Origin: Winogradskyella flava
GTDB lineage: Bacteria; Bacteroidota; Bacteroidia; Flavobacteriales; Flavobacteriaceae
Direction of reading: 5' to 3'
DNA length: 64,000 nucleotides
Assembly (NCBI RefSeq): GCF_014243395.1
Contig: NZ_JACLCP010000006.1
Span: 1 to 64,000 of the forward strand
A model generated the notes under the pieces. The model was not told where the DNA came from and did no database searches. It worked only from the letters and a program-made list of their open reading frames with translations. Of the stretch, positions 39,696 through 50,934 are shown piece after piece (the first letter of the stretch is position 1; every line of letters begins with the position of its first letter). A program made the position numbers and the translations under genes.

Positions 39696-39887
39696 TTAAC
39701 AGTCAGGTAATAATTCTATTACCCAGCATCCTCCATCACTGTTTGAAGTGAAGTGAGGACAAGGTTGAGCATAATAGTGATCAGAACAAAAATCACCGAT
39801 TTTTTTAATTCTGTTGATATCACCTCCAAAAACTTGTTTTTGTTCAGTTCTGTTTAGTGCTTTTCCTAGATTTAATAAATTTTTCAT
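39696..39887 (-). CDS. Double-glycine leader peptide, Cys-rich core (4 Cys)
   Basis: Precursor of a secreted peptide, bacteriocin-like by design. The 63-residue product has a leader ending KALNRTEQKQVFGG (residues 9-22) and a 41-residue core with four cysteines (FCSDHYY, QPCPHF, GGCWVI and the final Cys). I start at the second ATG because the two sister genes begin there; the frame also allows an ATG at 39890. The leader differs from the sisters at two or three of 22 positions, while the cores do not align. It has its own copy of the upstream block and a 3' hairpin. Activity is unknown; it resembles GG-leader natural-product precursors of Bacteroidota. Confidence 0.8.
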   Translation of the reverse strand: MKNLLNLGKALNRTEQKQVFGGDINRIKKIGDFCSDHYYAQPCPHFTSNSDGGCWVIELLPDC

Positions 39888-39890
39888 CAT

Positions 39891-39969
39891 TAAAATATTT
39901 AAAAATTAAATTAACCTTGATCACTTAAAGACACTCAAGGGTTATGTCTATTCCTCGCGAGAAAATATC
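39891..39969 (-). repeat. Conserved upstream block, copy 1
   Basis: About 80 bases before peptide 1 that recur before peptides 2 and 3. It contains arms CCTTGA (39915-39920) and TCAAGG (39935-39940), the palindrome CTCGCGAG (39954-39961) and the constant stretch TTAAAGACAC. The arms change together between copies. Confidence 0.8.
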
Positions 39970-40075
39970 TTAGAAGCTAGATTGTATTATATTTTTTACC
40001 AATAATATTTGTATTAAAAGAGATGACACAAAATTTGCAATTCTTTATGCTATTTGGTCTTTTTTGGATCGGTTT

Positions 40076-40103
40076 AGAAAAAGACTGCCTTGATTGGCAG
40101 CCT
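40076..40103 (-). terminator. Terminator of peptide 2
   Basis: On the minus strand GGCTGCC/GGCAGTC (one G-T pair) with a six-base loop, followed by T5. Confidence 0.72.
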
Positions 40104-40127
40104 TAATCAATAAAATTAAAATGCTCA

Positions 40128-40373
40128 TTAATATTGACATGAACCTGAAACGCATGATCCTTGGTAATATCCATTTCCGGTACCGCCACAACCTACTTGC
40201 ATACAGTCTATTGGCTCATATCCTGCGGGAAGACCAAAACCAGAGCAGTCAGAATTAGTTTGACATTCGCACTGTTCTCCACAATCTTTTGTTAGTCTTG
40301 CTCCACCTCCTCCAAAAACTTGTTTTTGTTCAGCTTTGTTTAAGGCCTTTCCTAGATTCAATAAATTTTTCAT
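40128..40373 (-). CDS. Double-glycine leader peptide, Cys-rich core (8 Cys)
   Basis: The 81-residue product has a leader ending KALNKAEQKQVFGG, differing from peptide 3 at one of 22 residues and from peptide 1 at two. Its 59-residue core has eight cysteines (KDCGEQCECQTNSDC, PIDCMQVGC, GSCVSGSCQY) and is rich in Gly and Ser. An even cysteine count fits four disulfides. The conserved upstream block precedes it and a hairpin-plus-T terminator follows, so it is a self-contained cassette. No transporter is adjacent. Confidence 0.83.
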   Translation of the reverse strand: MKNLLNLGKALNKAEQKQVFGGGGARLTKDCGEQCECQTNSDCSGFGLPAGYEPIDCMQVGCGGTGNGYYQGSCVSGSCQY

Positions 40374-40455
40374 AATTAAAATATTTAAAAATTAAATTAA
40401 CCTTGGTCATTTAAAGACACCCAAGGGTTATGTCTATTCCTCGCGAGAGAATATT
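40374..40455 (-). repeat. Conserved upstream block, copy 2
   Basis: Closely matches copy 1. Arms CCTTGG (40401-40406) and CCAAGG (40421-40426) carry a compensating G-C change relative to copy 1. GACA (40416-40419) and TGTC (40431-40434) form a second, overlapping pair. CTCGCGAG lies at 40440-40447. Confidence 0.8.
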
Positions 40456-40512
40456 TTATGATAGATTCACTTTTTGATTGTGTTCATTAAGAATAGCTTT
40501 TTAACGATTCTG

Positions 40513-40544
40513 AATAGGCCGCCTCTAATTAGAGACGACCTATT
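40513..40544 (-). terminator. Strong hairpin after peptide 3
   Basis: A 14-pair stem on the minus strand (AATAGGTCGTCTCT with AGAGGCGGCCTATT, two wobble pairs) around AATT. No T-run follows, so it may protect the 3' end rather than terminate. Confidence 0.6.
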
Positions 40545-40567
40545 ATAAATATTTGTTAATTCAAAAA

Positions 40568-40792
40568 TTAACAAACCATAACCCAATGGCCACAGCCATC
40601 ATATGGTCCACAAGCGTTAAAGTCCCCAGAATCACAAGGAGAGCCATTTGCACACACGTCATGATGTTCATATGAGCAACCGCTGCCAGATCCTTCATTG
40701 CTGGCATGAGTAATGTAAGCTTTGCCACCACCAAAAACTTGTTTTTGTTCAGCTTTGTCTAAAGCCTTTCCTAAATTCAATAAATTTTTCAT
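40568..40792 (-). CDS. Double-glycine leader peptide, Cys-rich core (6 Cys)
   Basis: The 74-residue product has a leader ending KALDKAEQKQVFGG. Its 52-residue core has six cysteines (GSGCSYEHHDVC, NGSPCDSG, NACGPYDGCGHW and the C-terminal Cys). The core shares no alignable sequence with the other two peptides. It is closest to the VKOR-thioredoxin gene, which ends 119 bases upstream on the same strand. It carries a diverged copy of the upstream block and a strong 3' hairpin. Probable secreted, disulfide-bonded peptide; activity unknown. Confidence 0.83.
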   Translation of the reverse strand: MKNLLNLGKALDKAEQKQVFGGGKAYITHASNEGSGSGCSYEHHDVCANGSPCDSGDFNACGPYDGCGHWVMVC

Positions 40793-40875
40793 AATTAATT
40801 ATTTATAAAAATTAAATTAGCCGTGAACATTTAAAGACACTCACAGTTTGTGTCTATTCTTCGCGAGAGAATATT
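40793..40875 (-). repeat. Conserved upstream block, copy 3
   Basis: The most diverged copy. The inner arms become GTGA (40823-40826) and TCAC (40841-40844), still complementary, while TTAAAGACAC and TCGCGA (40861-40866) stay fixed. Confidence 0.75.
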
Positions 40876-40910
40876 GTTCAATGCAAAGTCCTTTTTTAAG
40901 GGCTTTGTTG

Positions 40911-42533
40911 TTATGCCTTTTCAGCTTTTATAAAAGGGATATGTGGGTTGTTTACTTCAGAAAGCTCTTCTAAATTTTCTATGAAGTAAATAAGATCATT
41001 ACGGTCAAACATTTTGGGATAAGATTTACCGTTGATTAGAATCTCTGGAGTAAAATTGATACTATTATCGCTACACCAATTAAATTGATCTCTAAGTATG
41101 GGCAGGTAATTATTTGGTTGAGAACATTCGTTCCATTTTTTTAGCCATTCACTCGGAGAAGAGTCCCCGTAGATATCGTGCATGGCATCTAGGCAAGTTT
41201 CAATATTTTCTATATGATATATTTCTAAAAGTCGAGCTGCAATTTTTACAGCTGTGTTTTCTGGGTGTTCAGGATTGATATTAAATCGTATAGTAAGTTT
41301 AGTTAATTGAGGATAGTTACTGAGAATCTGTTCTATAGTTTTGTGAACGGGTTTACAGTGTCCGCATAAAGGATTGGTTATTATTACAATATTTAGGTTA
41401 CTGTTAGAATTGCCATAAATCATTTCTTTCTTGGATGCTACATACGTACTGATTGTTTTGTTTATGTCTAATTGGTTACTGAATAAATCAAAGTTTCTTT
41501 TAAACTTATAGTAATCAACTTTGGTTTTCTTGAGTGTTTTATTGTCTTTGAAAAATCTTGAGGCCAATAGCCATAGTACGCTTACAAAAGAAAAAGAAAG
41601 TACAACGATCAGTGTACTTTCTAAATTATATATTGGCTCGAAATTTAATAGTGCAATACAAGCTTGACACCACATAACTGCTACAATGCTTAGGCAGAGA
41701 AAGCACCATTTTTTTATAACTAGGGACTGGAAGTAAATAGAATAAATGGTTGTCGGTAATGCCATTAGACTTATTAGTTTAGGAATAAAGATTGCTTTGC
41801 TACTTAATGACAAAAAAGAAATGGCTAAAGCAAGGCCTGTGAAGTATGTGATACTGAGATCGCTAAGCTTCAAATTTTTGTAGACTGTTGAAGCTTTAGA
41901 GTTAAGAACGGCATTACAGCTCTTTTTTTCACTTGGATTAGAACAAAACGCATCTACAAGAATATTGCTTTCTCCTTGTTCTTGCTTGAAAACACTTATG
42001 GATATATAGATTCCTATTATGGATAGACATAAGAAACCAAGGTCAATTGTACTTGGTTTAGAAAGTATCAGCATCAAAGCGAACGCAATGAGAGTTGTTA
42101 AGACCAAACCTTTGAGTAGATTCGGATTTAATAGGGATTCACTAGACATTGTTGTAGTCGTATCTTTTTCTACAGCCAATAATATGCCGGTAAACTGATT
42201 TAAAAACTCGAATTCGGATAGTGTCTTCTTTTGTGTCTCGCTAAGTGTTATTTTGCAACCATTTTTGATCTTAGTAATAACAACAAACTGTTTTTGGGAA
42301 TCAATTTCCAGTTGTGCTAAAAATGTAGTTGGTAGCTGATTGAATGTATCAATAGTTTTAGGAACATCTAAAGCTAAGTTTTCAATATTGAAGTGGTCTA
42401 GGACTCCAGTTACTGCATGTAAGCTTGGATATGTTGGATGGCTTTGAATTTGAAAATCCAATTCATCAAAATCTACAGTTATTTTATTTGCTTTTAGTAA
42501 TTGCTGTACAAGAAAACTTAGTGGATTTTTCAC
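40911..42533 (-). CDS. C39-like / VKOR / thioredoxin fusion membrane protein
   Basis: Probable disulfide-forming enzyme for the Cys-rich peptides. Residues about 1-130 resemble a C39 peptidase fold (HPTYPSLHAVTGVLDHFNIE, QFVVITKI) but lack the catalytic Cys, and Gln stands where the catalytic His should be; it may only bind GG leaders. Then come four or five membrane helices of a VKOR domain (about 150-310) with loop cysteines FCSNPSEKKSC and active-site WCFLC (Cys277, Cys280). A thioredoxin domain follows with CGHC (Cys390, Cys393). The start is GTG at 42533. The TTGTTACCCA motif lies about 50 bases upstream. The peptide-enzyme link is inferred from position and chemistry. Confidence 0.85.
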   Translation of the reverse strand: MKNPLSFLVQQLLKANKITVDFDELDFQIQSHPTYPSLHAVTGVLDHFNIENLALDVPKTIDTFNQLPTTFLAQLEIDSQKQFVVITKIKNGCKITLSETQKKTLSEFEFLNQFTGILLAVEKDTTTTMSSESLLNPNLLKGLVLTTLIAFALMLILSKPSTIDLGFLCLSIIGIYISISVFKQEQGESNILVDAFCSNPSEKKSCNAVLNSKASTVYKNLKLSDLSITYFTGLALAISFLSLSSKAIFIPKLISLMALPTTIYSIYFQSLVIKKWCFLCLSIVAVMWCQACIALLNFEPIYNLESTLIVVLSFSFVSVLWLLASRFFKDNKTLKKTKVDYYKFKRNFDLFSNQLDINKTISTYVASKKEMIYGNSNSNLNIVIITNPLCGHCKPVHKTIEQILSNYPQLTKLTIRFNINPEHPENTAVKIAARLLEIYHIENIETCLDAMHDIYGDSSPSEWLKKWNECSQPNNYLPILRDQFNWCSDNSINFTPEILINGKSYPKMFDRNDLIYFIENLEELSEVNNPHIPFIKAEKA

Positions 42534-42751: not shown

Positions 42752-45700
42752 TTATTTATCAAGAATTACTTGATGGATTTCTTCAATTTTATCGTGTATT
42801 ATTTTTATAAAGTATTTACCATTTGGAAATCTAGATAGGTTTAAATTATATTTTCCATCCAATTGATTTCTATTGTCTTTTTGGGTTTTTAACAAATTGC
42901 CGCTAAAGTCGTAAAACTCCATAGTAACCATGGTATTTGAATTTTTACCTTTATCATTGTTTTCATCCTGAGAAGTTATATTAAGATTAGACTGTCTTTC
43001 TTCGGTTTCTATAATTTCTAATATATCACTTCTAACCGGATTTTGAGCAACTCTAAAGTTGGTAAAACCACCATCGTCTGAGCAATTTGTGAATTGAATT
43101 ACTAAGAACGTAGGCACACTCCATCCGCAATTGCCCCTTGCTCTAACCGTCACAATACCTGAGGTAGGTCTATAACTAAAAAATTGCGCCCGATTATTAG
43201 TTGCTAACATATTAAAATCTCCTGATACTATATTCCAGTCCCATTCCAAGGCACTTGATGGTGTTGTGAAATTAATATTACCATAATGGTCTGTGCAGAA
43301 AGAAAATGTAGCTTCCTGTTCTCCATCTTCGCCATAAATAATAGGACGTTGTGCTCCTAAACTAAGATCTTTAATAATTTCTATACCATTATTAAAGGTT
43401 GCTTTGATCCAACCTACACTACTAAGATTAGTAGCTTTCACTGTTATGGTTGTTCCTGTGTTATCTAGCATTTGTAAACTATTAGACACTTCCCAGTTAA
43501 CAACATCGCCAGGGACTTTACATTCATCAAAACTATAGGTTTCTACTTCAAAGTAACATAAAGAACTACTACCAGATAATCTTCTAGCATCAAAAGGGAA
43601 ATGTGGGTCTTGTGGATTCTCTGCTAATTCTTCTAAAAGCCAATCTTTACTTGCCTTTGTAAAAGAGGTATGTCTTTCATTTCTACTAGGGCCAAAATAA
43701 CTATCAAAAGGAATCTCATTGTCACAAAGTAAGTTTCTATTAAGACTATTTCCCCAATTAAAATCACTGTTATAAAAACCTAATGCGCTCACTGTAGGTA
43801 TAAATGAATGTATCTTTTTATTTGTTCTAGATTCAAAATGATCACCATGAATACCAAGTAGGGCAAATCCATAAGCTCCTAAGACATTTCCGAAGCTAAT
43901 ACCATTATTAAAACCAAATATGTCAGGGTTGTCTCCCATCACTGCTGCGTGTATTTGATCTTCGCTATTGTAGTAGCCTCCAGGAACATTATCCATGCTT
44001 CCGTTAGGATTAATATTTGTATAACTGGCTGTTCTAAGAGGTTTAAATAATCGCCACAGTCTAGCTAATTGTTGATGCTGCCCACTTTTAGGCATATATT
44101 TAGTATTCATCTCGGCAATTTTAGTATCCCACCATAATTGATCGGCAAATCCATGAATCCTAAAGTCTTCCGTCCCTTCCCTGCCTAAATTTATTCCATT
44201 GAGTGATCCATTGACAATAGCAATTTTTCTTAAATTTTGCGGATATCCATTAGAACCTGGTAAACCATTTGAAAACAACCTGCTGTAATATTCTTGATAC
44301 ACCGGTGAACCTCCGTTTTGATAATCTGAGCTATGTCCAGATTTGTGTTGTTCAATTAATTGTTGATTTGCTGCAGTTGATTTAAGTTGGTCATAGTAAA
44401 AGTCTTGAGCGGCAACACTATCTCCAAAAACATCCAATAAATTTATCATAGATTGTATTCCAAGAGGGATGTTTGCTCCCAAATGAGGACTATCAACACT
44501 CACCCACAAACGTGTGTTATGGTCTATATTATATTTCTCCATGTAAGCTAGAGCGTATCTACTAATTTGACCTCCCATACTAGGGCCGACAATAACCAAT
44601 TCTTCATCACTATTATTGTCTTCTAATTTTCCATTAAGATAGTTATATAGTGCTATGTGATTCATTGCATTACGTTCAATATAGTCTGCACCACCATCAA
44701 TTGTTACTCCATTTCTTTCATAAGTAGGATGATTTACTAAAACTACATCGTAACCAAGGTTTCTTAAGGTAGGAATTAGTGGCTGACCGTTATCATATAC
44801 CATGAACTCTTCTATTGAAAAATGCATGTCATTTGGAAGATCTGAATCACTATCTTGTATTTTACGTTTGTCCCCAGGGTCAAAACCATCAATAATTACA
44901 ATAGGTTTTAATAAAGTTGGTTGTGTGTTTCCATTGTTGGTATGGTAGAAAATGCGAAAATCAATCTCTCCGCATATTGGAGCAGACTCGTCATAGCCTT
45001 GAAACGGAATTGTACAAGTAAATTCTTCGACATTTTCAATTAATGGATCATTTCTTAATTGTTGATATTGATTTTTTAATTTAACATGAAGCTTTCCGTA
45101 GGTTGTTTTTTTTGTTCCATTTGTATATGTAACTACGAACTTTAATGTTTTATATCCAGTTTCATCGTAAGAAATTTTTAGAGATTTTCTCTGATAATTT
45201 CCATTCTCATAAATTAAATAATCTTGATTTGTACCAAAGTTTGCTGAAATTGATTTGATTTCGTCAACATTATCTTCGAACCATAAATTTGAATCGAATG
45301 TATAAGTCAGTTCATTTCCATGAGCAAAGTCTAATAATGGAGAGATTACTAAAATGTCGTGCTCTAAAAATGCTGGGTTATCATTTCTTCTAGTAAAAGT
45401 ATTATTTTCAAAATGTAAAGCACCTTTTGATTCATCTACCGGATTATAATTTATACTGTTCAGTTTAGCAGATATTACACCAATATTTACAGTTGTTAAA
45501 TCTTCACTTTTTTTGTAGAATTTACGTGCATTTTTATATGACATAAACTTATTTTTATTTGAAGATTTATAGAGTTCTTGAAGTGCTTGCTCAAAATAGC
45601 TTAATACAGCTATGTTTTTATCTTCAGAATTGAAACTGGTTAAATTAGAAATAGGCGTGGTGCGTTCATATAAGAACGATGATGTAAGATGGGTTTTGTC

Positions 45701-45811
45701 AATATTTACTAACATACTATCTATGTTAGGTTCTTGTAGTTCATCTTTTGTCTGGCTATAGCCAAAACAAATAGAAGATATGATTGTGAATAGAGTCAGA
45801 AAATTTCTCAT
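42752..45811 (-). CDS. Secreted alpha/beta hydrolase with T9SS sorting domain
   Basis: Probable lipase- or esterase-like surface enzyme. The 1019-residue protein has a signal peptide (ending CFGYSQ) and an unrecognised N-terminal region (about 20-290). The alpha/beta hydrolase core has KPIVIIDGFDPGD, the nucleophile motif VGPSMGGQISRYALAYMEKY (GxSxG-like, Ser in GPSMGG), VSVDSPHLGANIP and a candidate catalytic His in GIHGDHFESR. Ig-like regions and a type-A sorting domain (FYDFSGNLLKT...LSRFPNGKYFIKI) follow. Substrate is unknown. It lies between the CHAT gene and the VKOR gene on the same strand, with a copy of the shared motif about 165 bases upstream. Confidence 0.8.
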   Translation of the reverse strand: MRNFLTLFTIISSICFGYSQTKDELQEPNIDSMLVNIDKTHLTSSFLYERTTPISNLTSFNSEDKNIAVLSYFEQALQELYKSSNKNKFMSYKNARKFYKKSEDLTTVNIGVISAKLNSINYNPVDESKGALHFENNTFTRRNDNPAFLEHDILVISPLLDFAHGNELTYTFDSNLWFEDNVDEIKSISANFGTNQDYLIYENGNYQRKSLKISYDETGYKTLKFVVTYTNGTKKTTYGKLHVKLKNQYQQLRNDPLIENVEEFTCTIPFQGYDESAPICGEIDFRIFYHTNNGNTQPTLLKPIVIIDGFDPGDKRKIQDSDSDLPNDMHFSIEEFMVYDNGQPLIPTLRNLGYDVVLVNHPTYERNGVTIDGGADYIERNAMNHIALYNYLNGKLEDNNSDEELVIVGPSMGGQISRYALAYMEKYNIDHNTRLWVSVDSPHLGANIPLGIQSMINLLDVFGDSVAAQDFYYDQLKSTAANQQLIEQHKSGHSSDYQNGGSPVYQEYYSRLFSNGLPGSNGYPQNLRKIAIVNGSLNGINLGREGTEDFRIHGFADQLWWDTKIAEMNTKYMPKSGQHQQLARLWRLFKPLRTASYTNINPNGSMDNVPGGYYNSEDQIHAAVMGDNPDIFGFNNGISFGNVLGAYGFALLGIHGDHFESRTNKKIHSFIPTVSALGFYNSDFNWGNSLNRNLLCDNEIPFDSYFGPSRNERHTSFTKASKDWLLEELAENPQDPHFPFDARRLSGSSSLCYFEVETYSFDECKVPGDVVNWEVSNSLQMLDNTGTTITVKATNLSSVGWIKATFNNGIEIIKDLSLGAQRPIIYGEDGEQEATFSFCTDHYGNINFTTPSSALEWDWNIVSGDFNMLATNNRAQFFSYRPTSGIVTVRARGNCGWSVPTFLVIQFTNCSDDGGFTNFRVAQNPVRSDILEIIETEERQSNLNITSQDENNDKGKNSNTMVTMEFYDFSGNLLKTQKDNRNQLDGKYNLNLSRFPNGKYFIKIIHDKIEEIHQVILDK

Positions 45812-45996: not shown

Positions 45997-48747
45997 TTAT
46001 TTTCTTCGGAAAAGAAAAAAGACAAGTATTAGACATAAAAGCCCTAGGAGATAATAGCATAAGACAGGGAAGTTATGTTTCATTTCTATTGTTCCTGTGT
46101 CACCTATTAAAATAAAGGAAGCCCAGTAATAGGGTGAGGCATTACTCAATGAATTAGTCTTTAAATACTCAAGTTTTGCATTATGAAGTGCTAATGACTT
46201 ATCCTGATTTTGACTCAAGTTTGTATAGAATGAATTCACTAACTTCAATGTTGCTTTATCATTTACCTCCCAAAGTGTAGGCATAACACTGTGGGATCCC
46301 GAGTTAAAGAAGCCTCTTGATAAACTCATAACACCTTCACCATGATGAAGCTCTCCCAATGATGTATTACATGCACTAAGAACTACTAATTCTGCCGAAG
46401 TTTTTAATTTATAAATGTCTTCTAAAGTTACTTTTTGGTCATATAAAGCAATCCATGGGCTTATACTGTCATTAGCATTAGCATGAGATGCAATATGTAA
46501 AACGTTATAATTATTAGTTTCTTTGAAAAAGTTGGCTTTAGAAGCATTCTCTTTCAAAAGAATTTTGGCGTCAAACGTTTGGTCAATAAAGCGTAATTCT
46601 TCTTTAGAATTTGGTAACGACGTTAGACCTTCGGGAAATTCTAATGGAGCAATCGCTACTATATTATTTGCATTGTTTCTTTCAATTTTTCTGTTCTCAC
46701 TTAAAAAAGTTAACGAGTAGGAATAGTTTATTTCGTAGGTATAAATAAGATAACTTAATTCCTTGTCAGAAGTTGTGAGTGACTCAAATGGAATGTTTTG
46801 TAGATAATAATCTGGGACTATTGTTAGCGTCTTATCTTTTATAAAAGGCTTAATCTCATCCGGAAACAAGAGCCGATATAAGCTGTTTGAAACCTTTTTA
46901 AAACGTTCTATGGATTCCTTATCTCTAAAAGGCGTGTCAATAAGATTACGATATTCAATTACTAATTCTTTAAGTTCTTTACAATCTTTTATTTCAAAAA
47001 GATGAGTTTTAGATGAGGTAAGGATAAGCCCATAGCCTTCGTCATCTTCATCTTCTGGTATTATATATTCTATGTAGACCTTAGGCGCTTTTAAGAAATC
47101 CTTTCTAAAGTTATTAAAGTCAATAACTTTGGCTGGTTCAAGTGTTTTAAAATAAAATTTGTACTCTGGGCTTAAATCATTTAAGAATTCACTATAATTT
47201 TCTTTCGCTAAAAGTAGATGACGTTGAATTGAGTCTGAATTGTTTTTAACCCTTAGTCTTTCGAGCTCGATGATATTGCTATTTAGTTTTAGCTCTTGTT
47301 TGGCTATGTTTTCAGGAACCTTAGTGCTGTTTCTAATTGATTTTAATGAGATATCTTCTAGTAATAACAGAGCTTTATTTTTCTCCATATAATAAAATGC
47401 TCTTTCAGGCTCGTTTAATAAAAAGCTAGCTTTTGTGGCTTTAAGATAAATTTCTGAAGCTGTCTTTCTCCAAAATAATTTTGACCGATTATCTATATTT
47501 TCCAAGCGGATTTGATCGGCTAAGAAATCGGCTAAATTCAAAGTTTTGAAAATATCATTATGGTATTCTTTACTATTCAGATTTTGCTCGCTCAGTTCAA
47601 TCCAAATGTTTGCCTTGTGCATTAGACCAGAAATTAGTTGAAATTTTGTCTCACTCTTTATTAAGTCTGATTTTGTAGGTAAACTTTTAGAGTTAGATGA
47701 ATCTATTTTAATTAATGTGCCTAATGATTTTTGAATATGATATAAAGCTTCTTCATAGTTTTTGAAAAATAAATTATGCTTACTCAAGTTTCGGTGAACC
47801 AGAGATTTCATGTTCGGTCCTGCATCATAACGTAATGCTTTTTTCAAATAGAATTGCGCTTCTTTTTTTTCATCTTTCAGGTAAAGTACGCCGAGGTCAT
47901 TATAAGTTTTATTTAAAAGTTCAGGACTGTTTATTTCTAATGCGATTTCTAGTGCTTTGTCGAGGTGTTTTTTGCCATTTTCAAAATCATAATCAATTCT
48001 ATCGATATAAAGATTGCCGAGTTGAATATACATTTGATGAAAATAGGTAAGATCAATAATTAATTCTGAAGATGGATCACTATCCATTTCTTCTGCCTTT
48101 TTTATAACCTCTGATAAGGTATTTATGCCCTCTTCCAGACTTTGTGGTGAGTTTATTAATTTATTTGCCTGAGCAATGCCTAGTACACTTTTTATCTCGT
48201 AAATAAAATTATTGCGGTTTTCAGCAATTTTCTGGGATAGCTTAAAATAGTCTCTTGATAAATAGTACCGGTCAGTAATAAAATATATTTCGGCAATATC
48301 ATGAGCTCCGCGCAGCACATAACCATCTTGCTCATTTAGAGCTAACAATTGTTTATAGGTGACCAAGGCATCCTCAAGTCTATAACTGTAAAGTTGATAG
48401 TACCCTAGGCCATAAAGATTGCGCCTATAGGAGATGCTGTCTTTCATTTTTAGCGAATCCATCAGTGCTACATTCATTCTACAAAGTTCAATGGCGTTGT
48501 TTTCCCAGTTCATTTGTTGTATCCATTGCCATCTTGTAATTTCGAAAGTATCGTTTATTAAAAAATCGATTTCACCTTGTTGTTTATGCTTTTTTATTAA
48601 CTTATAGAATTCATTGTTCTTTTCTTCTGCGGTCAAACTATCAGAATTTTTTATTTGAGTAAATTCTTGAGATGTTGCTTGGGACAAACAATTTAAGTGA
48701 ATGGATAAAATAATTAAAGCTAGTAATTTAAAGGAGTAAACTCTCAT
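45997..48747 (-). CDS. TPR-CHAT protease with signal peptide and C-terminal anchor
   Basis: Probable periplasmic caspase-like protease. The 916-residue protein starts MRVYSFKLLALIILSIHLNC (signal sequence), has TPR helices (about 80-420), a helical linker and a C-terminal CHAT domain. The catalytic pair is His755 (HIASHANAND) and Cys793 (LSACNTSLGELHHGEG). A single membrane helix (PVLCYYLLGLLCLILVFFLF) and FRRK end the chain. I prefer the ATG at 48747: the longer frame from 48780 would translate part of a terminator hairpin. Neighbouring sigma and anti-sigma genes suggest a signalling role; the substrate is unknown. Confidence 0.85.
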   Translation of the reverse strand: MRVYSFKLLALIILSIHLNCLSQATSQEFTQIKNSDSLTAEEKNNEFYKLIKKHKQQGEIDFLINDTFEITRWQWIQQMNWENNAIELCRMNVALMDSLKMKDSISYRRNLYGLGYYQLYSYRLEDALVTYKQLLALNEQDGYVLRGAHDIAEIYFITDRYYLSRDYFKLSQKIAENRNNFIYEIKSVLGIAQANKLINSPQSLEEGINTLSEVIKKAEEMDSDPSSELIIDLTYFHQMYIQLGNLYIDRIDYDFENGKKHLDKALEIALEINSPELLNKTYNDLGVLYLKDEKKEAQFYLKKALRYDAGPNMKSLVHRNLSKHNLFFKNYEEALYHIQKSLGTLIKIDSSNSKSLPTKSDLIKSETKFQLISGLMHKANIWIELSEQNLNSKEYHNDIFKTLNLADFLADQIRLENIDNRSKLFWRKTASEIYLKATKASFLLNEPERAFYYMEKNKALLLLEDISLKSIRNSTKVPENIAKQELKLNSNIIELERLRVKNNSDSIQRHLLLAKENYSEFLNDLSPEYKFYFKTLEPAKVIDFNNFRKDFLKAPKVYIEYIIPEDEDDEGYGLILTSSKTHLFEIKDCKELKELVIEYRNLIDTPFRDKESIERFKKVSNSLYRLLFPDEIKPFIKDKTLTIVPDYYLQNIPFESLTTSDKELSYLIYTYEINYSYSLTFLSENRKIERNNANNIVAIAPLEFPEGLTSLPNSKEELRFIDQTFDAKILLKENASKANFFKETNNYNVLHIASHANANDSISPWIALYDQKVTLEDIYKLKTSAELVVLSACNTSLGELHHGEGVMSLSRGFFNSGSHSVMPTLWEVNDKATLKLVNSFYTNLSQNQDKSLALHNAKLEYLKTNSLSNASPYYWASFILIGDTGTIEMKHNFPVLCYYLLGLLCLILVFFLFRRK

Positions 48748-48762
48748 TGTATAAATATAAAA

Positions 48763-48797
48763 AAAAGGATAGGCTGTCACAGCCTATCCTTTTTTAA
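48763..48797 (-). terminator. Hairpin between the lipoprotein and CHAT genes
   Basis: Arms AAAGGATAGGCTGT and ACAGCCTATCCTTT around CAC, flanked by A-runs and T-runs, so it works on either strand. It lies upstream of the CHAT ATG and should limit read-through from the lipoprotein gene. Confidence 0.85.
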
Positions 48798-49586: not shown

Positions 49587-50150
49587 GTGACAGATAATTC
49601 CTTCTTTTTAAAAGCCTTAATAGCAAATGACTCTAAGGCTATTAAGGATATATATAAAGCTAACTTTTTTAAAGTTAGATCCTTTATAGTAAAAAATAGA
49701 GGGCAGGAACAAGATGCAGAAGATATTTTTCAGAAAGCTTTATTGCAATTAGCCGTACGTTATAAAAAGGAGAAGTTTATTATTAATACGAGTTTTGAAG
49801 CGTATTTATTCACGGTCTGCAAAAATTTATGGCGTAGAGAACTAAATACTAACAAAATCAGGGTAACAAATAATGACAATTTAGAACTTAAGGATGATAA
49901 TGAAGACATTGCTTTAGCAGTTTTAGAACAAAAACGCTGGGAATTATTTACAGAAAGTCTAGATTTAATTTCCGAGAATTGTAAACAGATTTTAAAGTTA
50001 TTTTTTGCGAAAACAGCTTATGCAGAAATTATGGAAAGATTTAATTATAATTCTGAGACTGTGGTCCGACAGCGCGTATTTAAATGTAAAAACAGTTTAA
50101 AAGCAATAGTTAGAAACGATAAACGATATAAAGCTCTGACTGAATTGTAA
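49587..50150 (+). CDS. RNA polymerase sigma factor, ECF type
   Basis: The 187-residue protein has the region-2 pattern DAEDIFQKALLQLAVRY...FEAYLFTVCKNLWRRELN and a region-4 helix-turn-helix (CKQILKLFFAKTAYAEIMERFNYNSETVVRQRVFKCKNSLK). The start is GTG; an upstream ATG meets an in-frame stop after six codons. The anti-sigma-like gene starts one base after its stop. It is divergent from the lipoprotein-CHAT-hydrolase block and is the natural candidate to control it. Confidence 0.9.
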   Translation: MTDNSFFLKALIANDSKAIKDIYKANFFKVRSFIVKNRGQEQDAEDIFQKALLQLAVRYKKEKFIINTSFEAYLFTVCKNLWRRELNTNKIRVTNNDNLELKDDNEDIALAVLEQKRWELFTESLDLISENCKQILKLFFAKTAYAEIMERFNYNSETVVRQRVFKCKNSLKAIVRNDKRYKALTEL

Positions 50151-50151
50151 G

Positions 50152-50934
50152 ATGAAAGACGATATTTTAATAGATAATTATTTAAGAGGCCTGTTGTCTA
50201 AAGACGAGGAGCAATCTTTTTTAAAGCGGCTTAAATCTGATATTGACTTTAATGAGAAGTTTCAATTGGAGAAACAACTTTTTGATGCTCTGGATGAAGA
50301 AAGTTGGAGTTTCGCAGAGCGTAATACCAATGAAGCCAATGAATATTTGGAAATTCTAAATTCTAAGGATATAAAAAATTTAAAAAAAACTTTAGCTGAG
50401 ACTAGTACAGGGTTCAATTCAAAAAAGACGAATACTGGTAATAAGCGGTTTTTTTATTATTTGGCTGCAGCTTCAATAATTGTTCTATTAGGATTTCAAA
50501 TGTTCTTTAATCAAAACATTTCCAATCAAGACTTATATGAAGAGTATGTGGGTCTAAATGATTTGCCATCTTTTGTGTCGAGAAGTGATGGTTCTAATAA
50601 ATTGGCTAATGCACAAGAGCTTTTTGAAAAAGGCCAGTATGCAGATGCATTGGACATATTCAATGTGTTTGAAAGTCAAATCGAGAATAGAAGTAACCTC
50701 TTGATATATAAAGGATTATCTTATGTGGAATTGGAGGATTATGAAAATGCAGAACAAGCATTTAATGACTTAGTGACTAGTGACCTTTTAGATGCCGAAA
50801 AAGGCTATTGGTATAAAGCCTTGTTATACTTAAAACAAGATAAGGTCTTGGAAACAGAGGGTATTTTGGAAACCATAGTGTCTGAAAACTTCTTCAATAG
50901 TAAGAAAGCCAGAGATCTGCTGAAAGAACTTTAG
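50152..50934 (+). CDS. Anti-sigma-like membrane protein with periplasmic TPRs
   Basis: Probable regulator of the preceding sigma factor. The 260-residue protein has a cytoplasmic N-terminus of the kind DNYLRGLLSKDEEQSFLKRL...KFQLEKQLFDAL seen in Bacteroidota anti-sigma proteins. One membrane helix follows (YYLAAASIIVLLGFQMFF, about 102-119), then a periplasmic part with TPR repeats (AQELFEKGQYADALDIFNVF; LSYVELEDYENAEQAFNDLV). It has no zinc-binding motif. Coupling to the sigma gene (one base) supports the pair. The TPR part may sense envelope signals or be cut by the CHAT protease; both are inference. Confidence 0.8.
   Translation: MKDDILIDNYLRGLLSKDEEQSFLKRLKSDIDFNEKFQLEKQLFDALDEESWSFAERNTNEANEYLEILNSKDIKNLKKTLAETSTGFNSKKTNTGNKRFFYYLAAASIIVLLGFQMFFNQNISNQDLYEEYVGLNDLPSFVSRSDGSNKLANAQELFEKGQYADALDIFNVFESQIENRSNLLIYKGLSYVELEDYENAEQAFNDLVTSDLLDAEKGYWYKALLYLKQDKVLETEGILETIVSENFFNSKKARDLLKEL

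Follow-up and report, generated by a model that had tools for sequence, protein, structure and literature searches.

We analysed a 64,000-nucleotide stretch of the Winogradskyella flava genome (Flavobacteriaceae; contig NZ_JACLCP010000006.1, positions 1 to 64,000; hereafter the window), in which three genes for cysteine-rich double-glycine (GG) leader peptides lie beside a gene that fuses a degenerate C39-like domain, a VKOR domain and a thioredoxin domain. This locus belongs to a large Bacteroidota system, no name for which was found. We regard it as rather probable that the system as a whole serves the dedicated maturation and export of hypervariable arrays of disulfide-rich secreted peptides, and very likely that the fusion is the dedicated oxidase of these GG peptides. 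The genes at the centre of the locus are as follows.

39696..39890, minus strand: GG-leader peptide A, 64 residues, leader MMKNLLNLGKALNRTEQKQVFGG, four-cysteine core
40128..40373, minus strand: GG-leader peptide B, 81 residues, eight-cysteine core
40568..40792, minus strand: GG-leader peptide C, 74 residues, six-cysteine core
40911..42533, minus strand: C39-like/VKOR/thioredoxin fusion, 540 residues, GTG start (Pfam, AlphaFold, structure matches and conservation)

As the initial annotation had described, the three peptide genes share a 22-residue leader that ends in VFGG, with pairwise differences of 1, 2 and 3, and their cores of 4, 8 and 6 cysteines are mutually unrelated in sequence. The leader is repeated between the genes together with about 85 nt 5' of the start codon, while the cores are not; over this stretch of 150 nt, the ungapped identity of the other copies to the one taken as reference is 92% and 63%. 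The leaders also carry the GG and the hydrophobic residues at positions -4 and -12 that are a feature of peptides exported by C39 ABC transporters (PCAT).

The fusion can be divided into the following parts.

Residues 1-131: degenerate C39-like domain
Residues 137-158: extra transmembrane helix
Residues 161-304: VKOR, with C197, C206, C277 and C280
Residues 304-345: sixth transmembrane helix and linker helix
Residues 358-525: DsbA-like thioredoxin domain, with C390-GH-C393 and a TP motif at 495-496

The domain reading given earlier for this 540-residue protein held, with CFLC at residues 277-280 and CGHC at residues 390-393. Three Pfam families scored above their cut-offs: Peptidase_C39 with 25.3 bits (cut-off 22; alignment starting at profile position 21), VKOR with 38.9 bits (27.5) and Thioredoxin_4 with 31.3 bits (23.2). 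An AlphaFold model built with 66 sequences reached a predicted local distance difference test (pLDDT) score of 88.9. In this model, the N-terminal domain matches the C39 domains of PCAT1, LahT and ComA (Z 13-15), the VKOR part matches Synechococcus and human VKOR (Z 13-14; Z 13.8 over 137 residues for Synechococcus), and residues 358-525 match ScsC, BdbD and DsbA (Z 13-17). The N-terminal domain, for which the initial annotation had proposed a profile check, thus has the fold of a C39 peptidase; it lacks the catalytic triad. In 55 of 55 PCAT C39 domains the residues of the triad (Cys, His, Asp) are invariant, whereas the fusion family lacks them as a set: any cysteine up to residue 46 is found in 4 of 83 members only, the His column is mostly Asp or Glu (His in 7 of 83), and the Asp region is unconserved. 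An H-P-x-Y-P-S motif is kept, with P33, P36 and S37 invariant and H32 nearly so among 16 diverse members; the conservation of SHP[ST]YPSLH and TGVL.H is partly due to selection, because the loci were found through those motifs.

The redox parts of the fusion are conserved throughout. All six cysteines (C197, C206, C277, C280, C390 and C393) are present in 83 of 83 fusions, although the open reading frame (ORF) filter that collected them included two CXXC motifs and WC..C, with the loop pair C197/C206 outside the filter; this filter lost only one fusion (L109), which is broken off at a contig end. The VKOR part has the loop cysteine pair and the CXXC in a four-helix core, as in the VKOR family, and the thioredoxin domain combines its CXXC with T495-P496 (82 of 83), which we take to be the cis-Pro loop, as in DsbA-like proteins. 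Its CGHC has Gly in 76 and His in 72 of the 83 members. CGHC is the motif of protein disulfide isomerase (PDI), and thioredoxin folds work in both redox directions. These two points speak for a reductase or isomerase that repairs wrong peptide disulfides, a role that we consider very improbable. Bacterial VKOR couples to quinone for disulfide formation, and the genome gave no DsbB match and no VKOR match beyond its two fusions, so no other source of oxidising power of the DsbB/VKOR family was found in it. Furthermore, in the passages available of PMC12453122, VKOR and a clostridial VKOR-DsbA fusion complement E. coli dsb mutants. The Synechococcus VKOR and this clostridial VKOR-DsbA resemble our fusion in having a VKOR loop pair and a CXXC joined to a DsbA-like domain, whereas an extra N-terminal helix, a C39-like domain and a reversed charge pattern set the fusion apart from such bacterial VKOR-DsbA proteins. 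Among the matches listed in our literature search, no title, opening of an abstract or passage described a C39-like/VKOR/thioredoxin fusion.

The linkage between the fusion and cysteine-rich GG peptides was followed in relatives. A genome scan with the motifs SHP[ST]YPSLH and TGVL.H gave 146 matches, the best 80 of which yielded 79 loci, taken with flanks of at most 10 kb; together with the two loci of the own genome, and with L109 dropped, 80 loci with a readable fusion were obtained. They come mainly from Tenacibaculum, Winogradskyella, Aquimarina, Lacinutrix and Bizionia, and a few from Roseivirga, Saprospiraceae and Bacteroidales. Leaders were collected with a strict pattern that fixes positions -12, -8, -4, -2 and -1, allows no leader Cys and no Pro in the last 13 residues, and sets no condition on the core cysteines; the hydrophobic residues at -4 and -12 in the relatives are fixed by this pattern and are thus no independent test. 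With it, 346 GG-leader peptide genes were found on the strand of the fusion and 4 on the opposite strand. The initial annotation had reasoned that a fusion occurring widely with no GG-leader peptide genes nearby would speak against the link; at least one such gene on the same strand was present in 72 of the 80 loci, with a maximum of 18 per locus. When a loose pattern was used, 75 of 80 loci had a GG peptide with at least 4 core cysteines within 6.5 kb.

The even cysteine counts of the diverse window cores, which had been pointed out as unusual, proved general. The 346 cores have 2 (5 cores), 4 (133), 5 (24), 6 (161), 7 (1), 8 (21) or 10 (1) cysteines; among 336 distinct cores, 311 are even, 25 are odd and none has 0 or 1 (binomial p 6e-64). 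Short ORFs of the fusion loci that do not match the pattern and lie outside long frames have 0-2 cysteines in 455 of 592 cases. As a control, we used 20 PCAT loci without the fusion, from 19 of 30 family genomes that have a PCAT and no fusion (PCAT identity at least 43%; the other 11 genomes, mostly of lower identity, were left out), and no fusion-like gene was found in these loci. Cores with at least 4 cysteines made up 302 of 331 candidates beside the fusion and 4 of 30 in the controls (Fisher p 2e-20), the loose pattern being the same for both sets and the controls carrying other leader types and only 30 candidates. Since PCAT loci without the fusion have few such cores, cysteine-rich cores go with the fusion and not with the transporter. 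The spacing C-C-CC-C-C is that of inhibitor cystine knots (knottins), and in the relatives this order was found in 41 of 156 six-cysteine cores, compared with a mean of 12.6 and a maximum of 24 in shuffles; it is absent from the six-cysteine core of peptide C in the window. Nine of the 25 odd cores form one repeated family, a five-cysteine family of Tenacibaculum (...CGPPHCPGVCDGRGG... and a variant; L056, L057, L067, L080, L087 and L110), whose odd count could reflect dimers or a free thiol.

The cysteines might also serve another chemistry, with thioether or lanthionine bridges in the peptides and a fusion that merely keeps the cysteines reduced or paired. Some homologues do touch radical SAM (rSAM) peptide and lanthipeptide leader models below cut-off. 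Every peptide model score stayed below its cut-off, however, and the even counts fit disulfides. NCBIfam precursor models (class I lanthipeptide; TIGR04149, for rSAM ribosomally synthesised and post-translationally modified peptides) scored none of the three window peptides and seven others above cut-off, one of the seven having been entered with one letter wrong. In addition, no radical-SAM enzyme or lanthionine synthetase was recognised by eye in 20 gene clusters (at least 110 residues, common to at least 6 loci, including the fusion, PCAT and HlyD), each of which was judged from 60 N-terminal residues of one representative; Pfam was run for 8 proteins. We regard thioether or lanthionine formation as extremely improbable.

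Export appears to be provided from another place in the genome (3.85 Mb, 99.95% complete). The initial annotation had noted the lack of a C39 transporter beside the peptides and had placed cleavage and export elsewhere. No C39 transporter was found in the 64,000-nt window, and export from elsewhere stood; the absence itself proved local only, as the genome search that had been suggested returned three C39 matches, namely the window fusion, a paralogous fusion on a contig termed C1, and a full C39 ABC transporter (PCAT) with intact triad at C1:47681-49867, about 3 kb from the paralogous fusion. The C1 cluster contains HlyD, PCAT, GG-leader peptides, two AraC-TPR regulators and the second fusion; a leader search of the genome gave 3 sites in the window and 4 in this cluster, and all four C1 peptides caught by the strict pattern have 4 cysteines each. 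Because the full PCAT of the genome sits in the C1 cluster, the window locus reads as a satellite using the transporter in trans, and the missing transporter was dropped as a biological peculiarity. A recent duplication as the origin of the two fusions was likewise rejected, since they share only 37% identity.

The same association was seen in other genomes. An intact-looking PCAT lies within the fetched flanks of 54 of the 80 fusion loci; this figure is used in place of the 60 loci of the PCAT neighbour cluster, which includes other ABC proteins, one of them from the window. The 26 loci with no intact-looking PCAT in view are the window and 25 others, of which 20 were checked genome-wide, and 18 of these 20 genomes have one at an identity of at least 57%, either elsewhere or nearby in a frame missed by the filter. 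Among 249 family genomes, the fusion occurs in 32, a PCAT match (E 1e-100) in 61 and both in 31, so that a PCAT match is present in 31 of 32 genomes with the fusion, compared with 30 of 217 without it.

The order of oxidation and export depends on the side of the membrane on which the fusion works. The ordinary VKOR active site is periplasmic, and therefore a cytosolic leader-binding domain could not hold the peptide during oxidation if the fusion had this orientation. Six membrane helices were found in the model (137-158, 162-185, 223-243, 249-273, 278-296 and 304-345), and six were also given by the averaged hydropathy of 83 homologues. VKOR proper starts at the second helix; because one extra transmembrane helix precedes it, the C39-like domain, the loop cysteines, the CXXC and the thioredoxin domain come to lie on one side. 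Lys and Arg near the membrane average 11.1 (7-15) on this active-site side and 1.0 (0-3) in the widened opposite loops, and the active-site side has the higher density in 82 of 82 fusions when the loops are widened and in 80 of 82 when they are taken bare (a short second copy of L083 was dropped). All 83 homologues have Lys274, which adjoins the CXXC. In VKORs of the phylum without a C39-like domain (n=19), Lys and Arg number 0.26 before the CXXC and 3.16 in the opposite hairpin, compared with 1.80 and 0.90 in the fusion group (n=30, including three proteins that are not C39 fusions, L176, L180 and L185). When the region before the CXXC is compared with that after the next helix, the fusion group is higher in 18 of 30 and lower in 2 of 30, whereas of the 19 other VKORs 15 are lower and 2 (L178 and L191) are higher. 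A further comparison also showed the reversed pattern in most ordinary VKORs; there, the automatic helix finder miscounted the helices of some proteins (for example L147, L163, L176, L180, L189 and L190). Across 119 genomes of the order, each of the 23 VKOR matches sits in a frame of 503-559 residues, as long as the fusion.

Under the positive-inside rule, the extra helix and the reversed charge pattern predict all parts of the fusion on the cytosolic side, and from sequence and model we consider a cytosol-facing C39-like domain, VKOR cysteine set and thioredoxin domain likely; oxidation of the core would then probably precede export. Export of the C39-like domain to the periplasm at the N-terminus was rejected on the charge pattern. 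To our knowledge, the characterised bacterial VKORs all act on exported proteins, which favours an oxidase of ordinary, periplasm-facing orientation; PCAT would then export reduced peptides that are oxidised afterwards, and the C39-like domain would dock on the transporter or, if periplasmic, bind something else. We judge such an arrangement unlikely, considering that the first of the six helices lies ahead of VKOR's own first, that the charges in 82 of 82 fusions are opposite to those of most ordinary VKORs, and that translocation would be needed for an N-terminal domain some 130 residues long, which lacks any hydrophobic segment ahead of residue 137. A further point in its favour comes from the bacteroidetocins, whose full activity needs a separate thiol oxidoreductase, its side not being stated in the passages available (PMC6671954).

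With the fusion facing the cytosol, we propose the following scheme. The precursor would be made with a conserved GG leader of 22-23 residues, which the degenerate C39-like domain would bind and leave uncut, as the initial annotation had supposed. While the leader is held, the DsbA-like domain would oxidise the core cysteines through its CGHC and pass the electrons via the VKOR cysteine pairs to the membrane quinone, all in the cytosol and ahead of export. The oxidised precursor would then be handed to PCAT with HlyD, cut after GG and its core exported; in the window genome, the transporter would be supplied in trans. The mature peptides may act in bacterial competition, which is a guess. By analogy, we think it quite likely that the C39-like domain docks the leader: in the parts of PMC6363468 available, inactive C39-like domains recruit substrate, as in HlyB, which lacks the catalytic Cys, and the C39 domain of LahT holds the GG leader in a hydrophobic groove. 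The C39-like domain (CLD) of HlyB and the C39 domains of LahT and PCAT1 have the fold of the fusion N-domain; there, the domain is part of an ABC transporter, whereas here an inactive domain sits on an oxidase.

Several observations weigh against this scheme. Five of the 80 fusion loci have no nearby GG peptide with at least 4 cysteines under the loose filter, and 25 of the 336 distinct cores have an odd cysteine count. Position -7 is Gln in 91% of leaders, whereas the LahT substrate has a hydrophobic residue there. Two of the 20 genomes checked (G250 and G251) and 1 of the 32 genomes of the family sample lack a close PCAT. As for the membrane side, it is derived from the positive-inside rule and helix counts, and two short VKORs without a C39-like domain (L178 and L191) are charged like the fusions. 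Finally, the bacterial cytosol is reducing, and the disulfides of the product would need protection or fast export.

A second component of the system lies upstream of the peptide genes, where an H-type pseudoknot RNA was recognised at the following positions.

39909..39962, minus strand: pseudoknot RNA of peptide A (model R1, E 2.3e-15 in the own genome; in the training set; covariation)
40395..40448, minus strand: pseudoknot RNA of peptide B (model R1, E 8.5e-16; in the training set)
40815..40868, minus strand: pseudoknot RNA of peptide C (model R1, E 3.9e-17; in the training set)

The element has the form AGACA-N4-CCTTGA-G-TGTCT-TTAAATGA-TCAAGG, with two interleaved stems placed before the start codons; the stems were spotted by eye and then tested. 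A pattern scan for the knot found it in 199 of 346 upstream regions of peptide genes, and in 76 of a random sample of 120 of these, compared with 19 after dinucleotide shuffling. Covariation was measured on 82 aligned upstream regions (79 of 126 listed, a list shortened by hand without a rule, and the three window copies). Paired cells made up 89.5%, compared with 78.2% in shuffles and 27-55% when the alignment was slid; double changes in the stems numbered 105 compared with 33 and were present in all 12 pairs, and 0 of 500 shuffles attained any of five covariation measures. A simple hairpin was rejected as the 5' element, as the window copies folded no better than shuffles (z 1.24, -0.50 and -0.18). 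At gathering score, Rfam, with which alone novelty was compared, gave no match to the element in 4 loci; when E values up to 10 were allowed, five matches appeared, each to a eukaryotic or plasmid RNA family and far below the gathering score, and these were set aside.

Training of the covariance model R1 used 40 chosen copies, and the window copies match it by construction because all three are in the training set. In the own genome, it found these three and one untrained copy in the C1 cluster, all before GG peptides, the next-best match having only E 0.07; R1 misses diverged copies, such as those seen by eye before two other C1-cluster peptides. R1 copies are present in 71 of 79 fusion loci, with 243 of 247 matches on the strand of the fusion, and no R1 match was found in the 20 control PCAT loci. 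Of 237 nhmmer matches to the element, 212 precede a GG peptide with at least 4 cysteines and 4 more a two-cysteine peptide; for the remaining 21, what follows includes peptide genes that are frameshifted or near misses, masked sequence, the end of a contig and unrelated ORFs. The element stands close upstream of 184 of 339 GG candidates in these loci, and the GG genes without it may be read from the gene ahead or have diverged copies. Of the 249 family genomes, 26 have both the element and the fusion, 5 the element alone and 6 the fusion alone (Fisher p 1e-24). At 30 loci taken from this element search, 26 of 36 elements, one of the 36 being in the own genome, precede a GG peptide with at least 4 cysteines, and the peptides found through the RNA alone include other leader types. 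In the five genomes with the element and no fusion (L204, L216, L217, L221 and L224), it stands before GG peptides (two with at least 4 cysteines and one short and without Cys), and also before a broken peptide-like frame and a lipoprotein-like protein of 175 residues.

The distance from the element to the ATG has a median of 21 nt (interquartile range 20-22), and this fixed spacing suggests translational control. We infer that the 5' pseudoknot RNA controls the expression of many of the peptide genes. The element could instead act as DNA, namely as an operator of interleaved palindromes that is read, for example, by the AraC-TPR regulator, as both arms are palindromic as DNA and a TCGCGA palindrome in the 5' part is conserved. 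The arms, however, change together to different sequences, even within one genome, while the loop stays, and the distance to the start codon is nearly constant; we find an operator improbable and retain the RNA reading. In many copies, the TCGCGA palindrome itself is situated at the element's 5' edge, for example at about 40860-40868, and candidates for its role are a transcription start, a regulator site or a further part of the RNA. With some hesitation, we suggest that the locus might represent a distinct class of ribosomal peptides, in which a quinone-linked, cytosol-facing VKOR would act with a dead protease that captures leaders, on hypervariable, partly knottin-like cores oxidised before export, and a dedicated pseudoknot RNA family would control the translation of each cassette.

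Compared with known systems, the bacteroidetocins (Coyne et al. 2019, PMC6671954) are the closest studied one that we found. According to the passages available of that paper, the thiol oxidoreductase gene needed for their full activity was proposed to form disulfides, and gel evidence for disulfides was given. Both systems occur in Bacteroidota and have a GG leader, a cysteine-rich core (four cysteines in bacteroidetocins A and B), a PCAT and a thiol oxidoreductase. In contrast, theirs has a leader of 15-16 residues, a five-transmembrane protein and a separate oxidoreductase, whereas here there are up to 18 unrelated cores, another type of leader with 22-23 residues, a single fusion of predicted cytosolic orientation and pseudoknot RNAs, the two systems being set apart here by their descriptions. 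By analogy, the bacteroidetocins lend support to the general idea of disulfide formation in GG peptides.

If our reading is right, the system would be a bacterial route to disulfide-rich mini-proteins inside a reducing cytosol and an instance, in bacteria, of a VKOR with inverted membrane orientation. An archaeal VKOR with a cytosol-facing active site, that of Aeropyrum pernix, is said to have been described by Hibender et al. in 2017; reportedly, it serves general oxidation and has no C39-like domain and no peptide substrates. Here, reading the leader alone would seem to let one enzyme handle hundreds of unrelated cores, which could make it a ready tool for the production of knottin-like peptides. 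The loci would also point to a large and so far little-explored reservoir of secreted peptides, most of it in marine genera, and the structured RNA that marks cysteine-rich GG peptide genes across Flavobacteriaceae could be used to find more of them.

Other genes in the neighbourhood of the fusion are as follows.

42752..45811, minus strand: protein of 1019 residues, C-terminus like a type IX secretion system (T9SS) sorting domain (by eye)
45997..48780, minus strand: CHAT-TPR protein of 927 residues (Pfam CHAT; neighbourhood comparison)
49587..50150, plus strand: 187-residue protein, by eye similar to an extracytoplasmic function (ECF) sigma factor; 28 of 80 loci carry a homologue, which is usually encoded on the opposite strand
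50152..50934, plus strand: putative anti-sigma factor (by eye), cluster median 265 residues; homologue in 27 of 80 loci

The 1019-residue protein gave no Pfam match at 1e-5. A CHAT-TPR homologue is present in 32 of 80 fusion loci and 0 of 20 control loci, and in 25 cases its gene directly precedes the fusion at a distance of 9-113 nt; in the window, it is 3.5 kb from the fusion, with the 1019-residue gene between them. The sigma-like and putative anti-sigma genes accompany the CHAT-TPR gene.

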